Shown in pieces: positions 2,825-54,309 of a stretch of 64,000 bases of DNA. A program made the position numbers and the translations under genes. A model generated the notes under the pieces. The model did no database searches. It had not been told where the DNA came from and saw only the letters and a program-made list of their open reading frames with translations. Source of the DNA: Asanoa iriomotensis. Lineage in GTDB: Bacteria > Actinomycetota > Actinomycetes > Mycobacteriales > Micromonosporaceae. The stretch is from the NCBI RefSeq assembly GCF_016862515.1, contig NZ_BONC01000019.1, positions 1 through 64,000 of the forward strand, read 5' to 3'. Every line of letters begins with the position of its first letter. Position 1 is the stretch's first letter.

Positions 2825-4518
2825 CAGAACAGGAAGTAGCGCTGGGCCATCGGCAGCTCGACGGCCGGCTCGGGTGGGACGATCTCGCCGTCGATACGGA
2901 CCGTGAACGTGTCCGGGTCGACCTCGATCCGTGGCAGCGCGTCGTTGAGTGGCAGGTCCGCTTTCGTCAGTGCGCGCGTGTCCGCGACCGGCAGCATCCG
3001 GCGGCCCAGCGGCAGGCGGTCGTCCAGCATTGCGTCGATCGCGGCCGGGGCGACGAAGGCGACGCTCGTGCGGGCCGGCACGACTCCGTACGCGCCGAAC
3101 ATCGGTCTTGGCAGCACCGGCTGTGGCGTCGGGATCGAGGCGTTCGCGTCGCCCATCTGCGCCCAGGCGATCATGCCGCCCTTGACGACCAGGTGCGGGC
3201 GCACGCCGAAGAAGGCCGGATCCCACAGCACCAGGTCGGCGAGCTTGCCGGGCTCGACCGAGCCGACCTCGCCGGCGATGCCGTGGGTCACCGCGGGGGC
3301 GATCGTGTACTTGGCGACGTAGCGGCGCGCCCGGAGATTGTCGGACAGGCCGCCGCGGCGCTCCTTCATCACGTGGGCGGTCTGCCACGTGCGCAGCACG
3401 ACCTCGCCGGCCCGGCCCATCGCCTGCGAGTCGGAGCCGATGATCGAGATCGCGCCCATGTCGTGCAGGACGTCCTCCGCCGCCATCGTGCTCGGCCGGA
3501 TGCGGCTCTCGGCGAACGCCAGGTCCTCGGGCACCGTCGGGTTGAGATGGTGGCAGACCATCAGCATGTCGAGGTGCTCGTCGAGCGTGTTCCGCGTGTA
3601 CGGCCGCGTCGGGTTGGTCGAGCTGGGCAGCACGTTGGGCTGCCCGGCGACCGTGATGATGTCGGGCGCGTGGCCGCCGCCGGCACCTTCCGTGTGGTAC
3701 GCGTGGATCGACCGCCCGCCGATCGCGCGCAGCGTGTCCTCGACGTACCCGGCCTCATTGAGGGTGTCGGTGTGGATCGCGACCTGCACCCCGCTGGCGT
3801 CCGCGACCCGCAGGCAGGCGTCGATCGCGGCGGGCGTCGTGCCCCAATCCTCGTGCAGCTTGAACCCGCCCGCGCCGCCGCGCAGCTGCTCCCACATCGC
3901 CTCCTGGCTCGTGGTGTTGCCCTTGCCGAGCAGCAGCACGTTGACCGGCCACGGGTCGACGGCCTCGAGCATCCGCGCGAGGTGCCAGGCGTTGGGCGTC
4001 ACGGTGGTGGCCTTCGTGCCCTCGGCCGGGCCGGTGCCGCCACCGATCACCGTGGTCACGCCGCTCCCGAGCGCGGTCGACAGGATCTGCGGGCAGATGA
4101 GGTGTACGTGGCTGTCGATCGCGCCGGCCGTCAGGATCTTCCCGTTGCCCGCGATCACCTCGGTGCAGGGACCGATGACCAGATCAGGGTGTACGCCGTC
4201 CATCGTGTCCGGATTGCCGGCCTTGCCCAGCGCGACGATCCGCCCGTCCCGAATGCCGACGTCGGCCTTGACCACACCCCAGTGGTCGAGCACCACGGCC
4301 CCGGTGATCACCGTGTCGACGGTGCCGTTGCCCCGGCTGACCGCCGACTGGCCCATCGACTCGCGGATCACCTTGCCACCGCCGAAGACCGCTTCGTCAC
4401 CGTACGAGCAGCGGTCCTCCTCGACCTCGATGAACAGGTTGGTGTCGGCGAGCCGGATGCGGTCGCCGGCGGTGGGCCCGTAGAGCGCGGCGTAGCGGCG
4501 GCGGTCGACCTGGCTCAT
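2824..4518 (-). CDS. ureC: Urease catalytic subunit alpha (UreC)
   Basis: UreC hydrolyses urea to ammonia and carbamate at a di-nickel centre. The product is 564 residues, full length for the family. All expected ligands are visible: H137 and H139 in SHVHL, the lysine that becomes carbamylated at K220 in [11 protein letters not shown]222, H249 in [15 protein letters not shown]275 in [12 protein letters not shown], the flap CHH at 322-324 and D363 in [10 protein letters not shown]. The ATG overlaps the ureB stop as ATGA, so the structural genes are translationally coupled. Nothing suggests loss of function. Confidence 0.97.
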
Positions 4519-45236: not shown

Positions 45237-45282
45237 ACAAGGGCCCCTTCCCACCGCGAAAGCGGCGGACAGGGGCCCTTGT
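45237..45282. terminator. Bidirectional terminator between nusB and bldD
   Basis: ACAAGGGCCCC (45237-45247) and GGGGCCCTTGT (45272-45282) are perfect 11-base arms. Inside lies a second stem, CCGC-GAAA-GCGG (45254-45265), with a GNRA tetraloop. It sits between the convergent stops of nusB and bldD. The left arm with its flanks also resembles the palindromic element inside pyrD. Confidence 0.8.
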
Positions 45283-45295
45283 GGTGACCCAGTTG

Positions 45296-45784
45296 TCAGC
45301 TGGCGAAGAACGCCCGCGGGTCCGCGACGAGGACGCCGTGCTCGTTCAGCCGCTCGATCAGACCCGACGGTGACGAGTCGTAGACGATCGCCAGCGCGCG
45401 AAGGTCGTCCGCGCGGATGGAGAGCACCCGGCCGTTGTAGTCGCCGCGCTGCTGCTGGATGGCGCGCGCGTAACGGGCTACGTAGGCGAGCTCCTCCGAG
45501 GCCTCGTCGTAGAGACGCTCGAGGTCGAGCACGATCTTGTTGGTGGGCTCGTGACGGACACCACTGCCGTCGGGCAGCAGTTCCGAGACCGGAACCCGGT
45601 AGAAGTCGGCGAGCTCGGCAAGGCGGGAGACCGTGACGGCCCGGTCGCCGCGCTCGTAGGAGCCGACGACGACCGCCTTCCAACGGCCGTTCGACTTCTC
45701 CTCCACACCTTGCAGAGACAGGCCCTGCTGTTGGCGGATGGAGCGCAGACGCGCGCCCAACGACTTGGCGTACTCAGAAGCCAT
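45296..45784 (-). CDS. bldD: Developmental regulator BldD
   Basis: BldD is the c-di-GMP-responsive master repressor of sporulation genes in differentiating actinobacteria. The product is 162 residues. Residues 4-68 are an XRE-type helix-turn-helix nearly as in Streptomyces (GRWKAVVVGSYERGDRAVTV). The c-di-GMP signature RxD-X8-RxxD is complete: R113 and D115, then R124 and D127 in RGDYNGRVLSIRADD. The ATG at 45784 has GGGAGAG upstream. Its presence implies a mycelial or sporulating life style. Confidence 0.96.
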   Translation of the reverse strand: MASEYAKSLGARLRSIRQQQGLSLQGVEEKSNGRWKAVVVGSYERGDRAVTVSRLAELADFYRVPVSELLPDGSGVRHEPTNKIVLDLERLYDEASEELAYVARYARAIQQQRGDYNGRVLSIRADDLRALAIVYDSSPSGLIERLNEHGVLVADPRAFFAS

Positions 45785-45842
45785 TGACGACTCTCCCAGT
45801 GCTGGTACCCGGGGTTCTCCCCAGCGATCGCTACGGAGCGTG

Positions 45843-45871
45843 ACGGTACGGGGAATGAGAGAACTGGTCAA
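45843..45871 (-). promoter_or_regulatory. bldD promoter (-35/-10)
   Basis: On the minus strand, TTGACC (45871-45866) and TACCGT (45848-45843) are separated by exactly 17 bases, close to a housekeeping sigma promoter. Transcription would begin near 45836, giving a leader of about 52 bases. Confidence 0.6.
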
Positions 45872-45892
45872 GTGCTCATTACCCATCACTTG
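45869..45892. promoter_or_regulatory. Candidate BldD autoregulatory box
   Basis: CAAGTG (45869-45874) and CACTTG (45887-45892) are perfect arms with a 12-base spacer, overlapping the bldD -35 element. The halves resemble the AGTGA...TCACT-type BldD consensus, and BldD is known to repress its own gene in Streptomyces. The assignment is inferred. Confidence 0.45.
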
Positions 45893-45995
45893 GGAGGACT
45901 GTCTTCTCTTGTCCGAATTTTCCTGCACCATGCATCAACGACTCGCCACGTTGTTACGCACGGCACGCTGCGCATACCCACGCTGTCCCCGCTGG

Positions 45996-53274: not shown

Positions 53275-53285
<11 letters not shown>

Positions 53286-54309
53286 GCGGGTCGTCCGCCC
53301 GGCCCTGTTCCGTATCGGTTCGGGCGACGCCGAGACCGCGCACGAGTGGACGCTGACGCGGCTGGCGGGCCTCCCGCCGGCCGCGTGGCGGCTGCTGGCT
53401 TCGCGGTATACGGTGCGCAACCCGCGCACGGTCTTCGGGCTGGAGTTCCCGAACCCGGTCGGGCTCGCGGCGGGCGTCGACAAGAACGGCGTCGCGCTGG
53501 CGGCCTGGCCGGCCCTGGGCTTCGGCTTCGTCGAGGTGGGCACGGTGACGGCGCACGCACAGCCGGGCAACCCGAAACCGCGCCTGTTCCGCCTGCGCGA
53601 CAGCGAAGCGATCGTCAACCGCATGGGCTTCAACAACGAGGGCGCCGCGGCGCTCGCGCGGCGATTGGAACGGTCCGTTGTTACTCGGAAAGCGTTAACA
53701 ACGGACCGTTCCTTTCCCTTGGGCATCTCGTTGGGGAAGTCCAAGGTGACGCCGCTCGAGGAGGCGGTCGAGGACTACCTGGCGTCCTACACGTTGCTGC
53801 GGGACCACGGGGACTACTTCGCCGTCAACGTGTCCTCGCCCAACACGCCTGGGTTGCGGAGTCTGCAGGATCGCGACTCGATCGACGCGTTGTTGAGTGC
53901 GTTGGTGGGGGAGAAGCCCATCCTCGTGAAGATCGCGCCCGACCTGACCGAGGCCGCGATCGCCGAACTGCTGGAGGTCTGTCTCGCCCGCGGTGCCGCC
54001 GGGGTGATCGCCACCAACACCACCCTCGCCCGAGACGGTCTCGCGGGCGCCGATCGGGTCGCGGGGGAGGAGGCCGGCGGGCTGTCCGGTGCGCCGCTGA
54101 CCGGGCGGGCGCGCGATGTCGTGCGGTTCGTGCACGACGAGACCGGCGGGCGGCTGCCCGTGATCGGGGTCGGCGGGCTCATGTCGCCCGACGATGCCGC
54201 ACGGATGTTCGATGCCGGCGCCAGTCTGGTGCAGGTCTACACCGGGTTCATCTATCACGGGCCCGCGCTGGTCCGGCGGATCGCGTCTTTGAAGAAAGGA
54301 CAATCGTGA
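53275..54309 (+). CDS. pyrD: Quinone-dependent dihydroorotate dehydrogenase
   Basis: PyrD class 2 oxidises dihydroorotate at the inner face of the membrane with quinone as acceptor. The product is 344 residues. The N-terminal membrane-associating helices, [18 protein letters not shown] with the catalytic Ser, KIAPDL and GGLMSPDDA are intact. Residues about 131-146 are encoded by a 46-base palindromic element (53667-53712) that includes a TTA codon for Leu141, a codon nearly absent in such genomes. The insert falls in a variable loop before [10 protein letters not shown], so the enzyme should still fold. Both ends overlap neighbours. Confidence 0.95.
53667..53712. repeat. Palindromic element inserted in frame within pyrD
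   Basis: GGAACGGTCCGTTGTTA (53667-53683) and its exact reverse complement (53696-53712) form 17-base arms around a 12-base loop. Each arm is itself nearly palindromic (AACGG-T-CCGTT). It is translated as part of PyrD and carries the TTA codon at 53695-53697. The right arm shares 13 of 17 bases with 45235-45251 near the nusB terminator, and the differences keep the inner palindrome. Confidence 0.8.

Follow-up and report, generated by a model that had tools for sequence, protein, structure and literature searches.

A putatively terminator-like small palindromic repeat of Asanoa, with in-frame copies inside genes and lineage dialects of its core

Short repeats that resemble the one considered here have been described in other bacteria. 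SPRITE of Streptococcus pneumoniae, in the passages of PMC3049150 devoted to it, is an interspersed terminator-like hairpin, found near gene 3′ ends and enriched between convergent genes. It differs from the Asanoa repeat in its AT-richness, its long U-rich tract and its AAAA/TTTT ends, and those passages mention neither of two Asanoa features, copies inside genes and lineage dialects. The Rickettsia palindromic elements, according to parts of PMC10969869, also lie in frame in unrelated genes. However, they are about 150 bp long, form ten families and are found within genes in nearly half of cases, whereas the Asanoa elements are most often 45–46 nt long, lie mostly at gene ends and belong to another host lineage. 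The REPs with a GTAG or CGTC tag, together with their RAYTs, appear in passages of PMC3733652 as short palindromic repeats that are mainly extragenic, with some copies in genes; the palindromic element of R. conorii is there classed among the CGTC-tagged palindromes. Finally, the dialects of the DNA uptake sequence (DUS) of Neisseriaceae combine, in passages of PMC3630211, a short repeat, genome-wide lineage differences and terminator-associated inverted pairs. A DUS is roughly a 10-mer, present in thousands of copies and bound by the protein ComP, in contrast to the compound two-core hairpin and the roughly 100 exact cores of Asanoa.

The family described here is a small palindromic repeat, terminator-like to judge from its placement, that has copies inside genes and is set apart by lineage dialects switched nearly genome-wide. 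The titles and abstracts of the best-ranked literature matches, such as the first 15 of 362 or 10 of 695, few of them from subscription journals, gave no description of this family in Micromonosporaceae.

How does the Asanoa locus compare? The window, the whole stretch that was analysed, comprises 64,000 nucleotides of Asanoa iriomotensis (G000). Its features are as follows, CGG and GGG denoting the two dialects of the core.

53275..54309, + strand: pyrD, quinone-dependent dihydroorotate dehydrogenase, the host gene
53667..53712, + strand: palindromic repeat of 46 nt in the CGG dialect, read in frame within pyrD
53667..53679, + strand: left core GGAACGGTCCGTT, nearly palindromic in itself
53684..53695, + strand: 12-nt linker CTCGGAAAGCGT
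53695..53697, + strand: TTA codon (Leu141) from the element
53700..53712, − strand: right core, inverted copy
45237..45282, + strand: probable diverged, unswitched (GGG-type) relative of 46 nt, cores ACAAGGGCCCCTTCCC..., recognized by arms and length

The arms of the pyrD element (53667–53683 and 53696–53712) are 17 nt long and 100% complementary across a gap of 12 nt, as the earlier note had read them: 46 bases with perfect 17-base arms, in frame in pyrD. At up to three mismatches the 17-mer arm occurs at two places only in the window, both of them these arms; shuffled sequences gave a mean of 0.08 matches and reached two in 2 of 100. The RNA hairpin was computed at −32.3 kcal/mol with a z of −7.05, and as good a fold was found in none of 200 shuffles. 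For the elements folded, z was −7 and −14 for two perfect hairpins and −3 to −6 for four others. A chance palindrome is ruled out by the arm search against shuffles, by the 134 places that the family occupies in the genome and by its 118 exact cores there (see below). Within the linker, CGGAAAGCGT is common to the pyrD copy of A. hainanensis and GGAAAGCG to several other copies.

The element takes up codons 131–146 of the 344 of pyrD, whose product is a dihydroorotate dehydrogenase of the quinone type. Codon 141 is the sole TTA of this gene, and pyrD is the sole gene with a TTA among the 56 called in the window (gene calls, here and at the other loci, come from our own gene-calling script). 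The loop of PyrD is nine residues longer than in the best solved relatives, 8ofw and 4xq6. In the AlphaFold2 model (mean pLDDT 89.8), residues 131–150 are placed as the less certain end of helix 124–141 and the loop preceding strand 149–153, with block pLDDT values of 70 and 71 in the insert region. The earlier note was right that the element brings in the TTA of Leu141; the insert is modelled as helix end plus loop, with a local pLDDT of about 70.

How widespread is this palindrome? The pattern AACGGTCCGTTNTTA, at up to one mismatch, was found at 134 places in the A. iriomotensis genome against none for the control, and the interspersed repeat, for further copies of which the earlier note had suggested a search, is real. 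Its unit is the core palindrome GGAACGG-W-CCGTTCC, in pairs usually 30–31 bp apart. Elements are simple hairpins of 40–46 nt (commonest length 45–46 nt), pairs of cores enclosing CTTTCCGCATA or a similar sequence, or nested forms of up to about 130 nt. We examined 59 copies drawn from part of the 134 places, so that the genome holds at least 59; one of them (L050) is a single-core fragment, and two further copies (L204, L211) lie beyond the 59. The hairpin at 45237–45282 in the window lies 13 nt past the end of the reverse ORF 45296–45931 and downstream of forward genes; by its arms and length it is probably an unswitched, diverged member of the family.

In a sample of 250 genomes of Micromonosporaceae a related pattern occurred in 51 genomes and in 10 of 44 genera, patchily, with 1 to 145 matches; since the reversed-pattern control gave 1–5 matches in 6 of the 250, genomes with a single match prove nothing. 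Neither dialect was found in 293 genomes of the same class outside Micromonosporaceae, in a class sample whose controls gave one match each in 5 of 296 genomes. An element-based scan matched A. ishikariensis, A. hainanensis, A. siamensis and two Micromonospora. The repeat family has so far been found in Micromonosporaceae only. Carriage by viruses was rejected, the exact pattern having no match in viral_contigs. At the gathering score, Rfam gave no family match at the element from six sources; at another place in the window (4077–4366), 5_ureB_sRNA (RF02514) reached 48.5 bits, the gathering score being 40, which may just reflect a urease gene.

Where do the copies lie? The earlier reader, working without tools, missed both the gene-end home of the family and its lineage-wise change of sequence. 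Among the 59 A. iriomotensis copies, convergent genes flank 34, tandem genes 18 and divergent genes none, and 7 are inside genes; the remaining gene pairs at these loci number 34 convergent, 206 tandem and 67 divergent. Convergent placement thus applies to 34 of the 52 copies outside genes, compared with 34 among the 307 remaining pairs (odds ratio 15, p 3e-16). The 63 copies of A. ishikariensis (G001) are 41 convergent, 15 tandem and 5 inside genes, with 41 of 58 intergenic copies convergent against 133 of 829 pairs (p 2e-18). Copies in Asanoa G004 (19) are 15 convergent, 3 tandem and 1 inside; those in G146, of another genus (12), are 7 convergent, 2 tandem and 2 inside; those at the named loci (19) are 9 convergent, 6 tandem, 1 inside and 1 at an edge. 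Divergent placement accounts for the remainder: 2 of 63, 1 of 12 and 2 of 19 in A. ishikariensis, G146 and the named loci, respectively. The distance from stop codon to element in A. iriomotensis has a median of 7 bp, and 75 of 86 distances fall within −20 to 12 bp.

Short palindromes that are paired, inverted and mostly at gene ends would also fit a REP/BIME family moved by a RAYT, a Y1 transposase. However, a search of the six Asanoa with the Pfam Y1 family (PF01797) found no match in five of them, including all three genomes with the CGG dialect; the sole match, in A. ishikariensis (L117, G001:C6:310197-310409), scores above the family cut-off but is partial and has an internal stop. Nor does the Asanoa family carry a regular tag. 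GTAG stands near none of 122 element ends in A. iriomotensis and 1 of 48 in G004, and CGTC near 3 of 122, 6 of 126 in G001 and 2 of 18 in G003 (A. hainanensis). We regard mobilization of this kind as extremely improbable; an enzyme unrelated to the Pfam Y1 family may be at work.

A stable GC hairpin just past the stop codon, a trait of intrinsic terminators, was found for most copies, the pyrD copy not being one of them; the U-runs 3′ of the hairpins are short. In A. ishikariensis the element is replaced at two sites (L082 and L085) by another GC hairpin of about −33 kcal/mol, in which no family core was found at up to two mismatches. One arm of the replacement hairpin at L085 has GAAGGGCC in common with the GGG core, and this hairpin could be a remote derivative of the GGG form. 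Sites empty in relatives, for which the earlier note had suggested looking at pyrD, turned up for other copies, a trait of MITEs. At L051 A. iriomotensis reads cccgtTAAGGAACGG, the element supplying the stop codon, and A. ishikariensis reads cccgtTAG without an element. At L053 (2998–3042) the C-terminus of an ATPase-like gene is replaced and its stop supplied by the element, which A. hainanensis (L175) lacks. The third such site is in ccdA, empty in four of the six Asanoa. No target-site duplication was evident in the alignments of ccdA, L051 and L053, the flanks of which have diverged. The family most likely consists of spreading hairpins, whose terminator-like role is suggested by where they sit, how they fold and the different hairpins that can take their place.

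What of the copies inside genes? All seven are in frame. Their hosts are pyrD; an IniR/LuxR-like regulator; a membrane protein with DsbD_TM, which we take to be CcdA-like; a cobaltochelatase-like protein; a member of the 5-oxoprolinase/urea amidolyase family; a GlmL-family protein; and an 875-residue protein with weak laminin-G matches only. The ccdA copy is common to A. iriomotensis and G004; the other four Asanoa lack the element and a few more codons (25 residues), the frame being unbroken. In G015, a genome of another genus, this CcdA-like loop likewise contains an element, of GGG type and read in the same frame. In the IniR-like gene the arms read TDRS..NNGPF or RDPS..NKGPL, and A. iriomotensis, G004 and A. 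ishikariensis keep gene, frame and a near-identical linker; the element is translated as TDRSYAETVNNGPFL in A. iriomotensis, as RDPSYAESVNKGPLL in A. ishikariensis and as 15 residues at the same place in G004. A. hainanensis has a remnant only at this site, and G002 and G005 have no element. The glmL copy, common to A. iriomotensis and A. ishikariensis with gene and frame kept, is absent from G002, G003 and G005; the motif search recovered no glmL stretch from G004. The pyrD, IniR-like and glmL copies are thus each missing in some Asanoa; copies inside genes come and go.

In pyrD itself A. hainanensis has the same element, with the same site, frame and linker, which rules out a copy unique to A. 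iriomotensis. A. ishikariensis has a shortened element, and its TTA lies outside the remnant. The other three Asanoa have longer, GC-rich loops without the element and no TTA in the stretch checked. Among 20 listed relatives from other genera the loop is shorter in 19 and is longer and unrelated in one (G014). Long GC-rich low-complexity inserts were also seen in the same protein loop of several element-less relatives (L012, L039 and L040 for pyrD, L249 for glmL, L257/L258 for the IniR-like gene).

Do these copies have a function in translation? In five of the seven a TTA lies inside the element, and the sixth case, L080, has one in the codon immediately preceding the element; these six hosts have no other TTA, and TTA from other sources is rare, being found in 8 of 417 called genes of A. 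iriomotensis. A mobile coding element like those of Rickettsia, the TTA of which would tie pyrD and the other hosts to the tRNA bldA, accords with these counts and with in-frame copies in seven genes, the parallel that the earlier note had drawn (7 of the 59 copies examined). But 52 of the 59 are intergenic, and the element's TTA is present in pyrD of A. iriomotensis and A. hainanensis alone, two of the six Asanoa. We consider this reading highly improbable. Since the TTA of pyrD is not conserved across the genus, we see no sign of a regulatory link; the proposed tie of pyrimidine synthesis to bldA, for which the rarity of TTA is the whole ground, is not supported.

The core exists in two dialects: GGAACGGNCCGTT in a clade of three species, GGAAGGGNCCCTT in the other three Asanoa and in other genera. 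The comparison to trust is that of exact-pattern counts. The CGG form, GGAACGGNCCGTTNNTAAC, occurs 118 times in A. iriomotensis, 59 in G005 and 90 in G004, and not at all in the other 147 genomes of the family sample; its reversed-pattern control gave no match in A. iriomotensis and five in one genome (G084). The GGG form, GGAAGGGNCCCTTNNTAAC, occurs once in A. iriomotensis, once in G005 and five times in G004, against 75 in G001, 5 in G002 and 3 in G003, and also in 25 genomes of other genera. The A. siamensis loci have the CGG dialect. A. iriomotensis, G004 and G005 group together with support of 96/97 (3211 columns from one 4-kb region around pyrD); since the three CGG-dialect species are one clade, a single switch suffices.

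The change was nearly complete. One surviving GGG copy lies at an apparently orthologous place in A. iriomotensis and G005, with the same 10-nt flank. Mixed cores were found in A. iriomotensis, G004 and G001, and in all six terminal mixed cores the outer half has the CGG form. In a 173-nt cluster of G004 (L209, 2455–2627) the two dialects stand next to each other. A second dialect position is the centre base of the core. It is A or T in 131 of 133 A. iriomotensis cores, whereas 46 of the 132 cores of G001 have C or G there, two tallies that are biased by copies having been found with CGG patterns; C or G also occurs in many G004 terminal cores and in 17 of 17 of G146.

Dialects that differ by species, together with inverted pairs where convergent genes end, bring to mind a recognition sequence of the uptake type, maintained by a trans-acting receptor; passages of PMC3630211 report dialects for DUS, and inverted pairs at terminators. 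Yet an Asanoa genome has at most 118 exact cores, against the thousands given there for DUS dialects, and we think this reading very unlikely.

Did the copies change where they stand, or were they replaced? At 22 A. iriomotensis sites comparison was possible with the A. ishikariensis or A. hainanensis DNA fetched, and at 15 both sides have an element; this is not a rate, the G001 and G003 stretches having been chosen for holding elements. Some orthologous copies keep site and linker while the core is mainly different, with amino-acid changes in pyrD, the IniR-like gene and glmL. The alternative is that the dialects arose by re-amplification: one form would have been lost wholesale, and a new variant would have multiplied and settled at the gene-end sites that its predecessor had favoured. 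At five of the 14 pairs with both flanks (L043, L048, L083, L087, L089) the orthologue is no closer than at least 28 of the 70 other elements, so that re-insertion at favoured sites is possible there, and at L087 (2978–3023, against L164) the linker appears inverted between A. iriomotensis and A. ishikariensis. On the other hand, the A. ishikariensis orthologue ranks first of 71 elements at L049 and L081, and at L090 and L092 the orthologue ranks second, these best-ranked pairs being long elements the rank of which is driven by common architecture. Mixed cores exist, and neither gene nor frame differs for the IniR-like and glmL copies, the former also keeping nearly all of its linker. Re-amplification seems to us unlikely. 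Change in place at several sites, coding ones included, is in our judgement shown; the strongest case is a coding one, the IniR-like gene.

How might such a change proceed? The arms covary within elements: the inner dinucleotide is equal in 21 of 42, against a shuffle mean of 11.1 (p 0.0002), as expected if template switching in the hairpin copies changes between arms. Template switching is a route by which quasi-palindromes are corrected. We consider it probable that the whole is explained by a spreading, terminator-like repeat of gene ends, with an in-frame minority and an in-place dialect switch in one Asanoa clade. At gene ends the transcribed hairpin would end or protect transcripts from both sides, and new copies there would therefore be tolerated or useful. 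Inside genes the survivors would be copies that fell in a stop-free frame within dispensable loops. A change in half a core would pass across the palindrome by template switching, and could spread through the genome by conversion between copies or by selection by a sequence-reading factor.

Candidates for the driver of the roughly 100 joint core changes are conversion, turnover at favoured sites or a core-reading factor. That coding copies, too, changed in place speaks for a driver acting on nucleic acid and not on the gene product. It is possible, and we put it forward tentatively, that a Micromonosporaceae factor recognizes the 15-bp palindrome GGAASGGNCCSTTCC where genes end, that it shifted its specificity a single time, in the ancestor of the three Asanoa, and that about 100 sites followed base for base, pyrD with its altered protein among them. 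If so, the copies inside genes would be working sites of that system and not debris.

Whatever the driver, pyrD shows how an essential enzyme can gain a loop encoded by a palindrome, as well as a TTA codon of a rare kind. The switch in a single clade, for which orthologous copies exist in either dialect, some of them coding, makes the old question of why repeats stay alike directly testable between conversion, turnover and a shared reader. If terminator-like hairpins spread as repeats and stay uniform, then the gene ends of these genomes would be a co-evolving set rather than independent sites.
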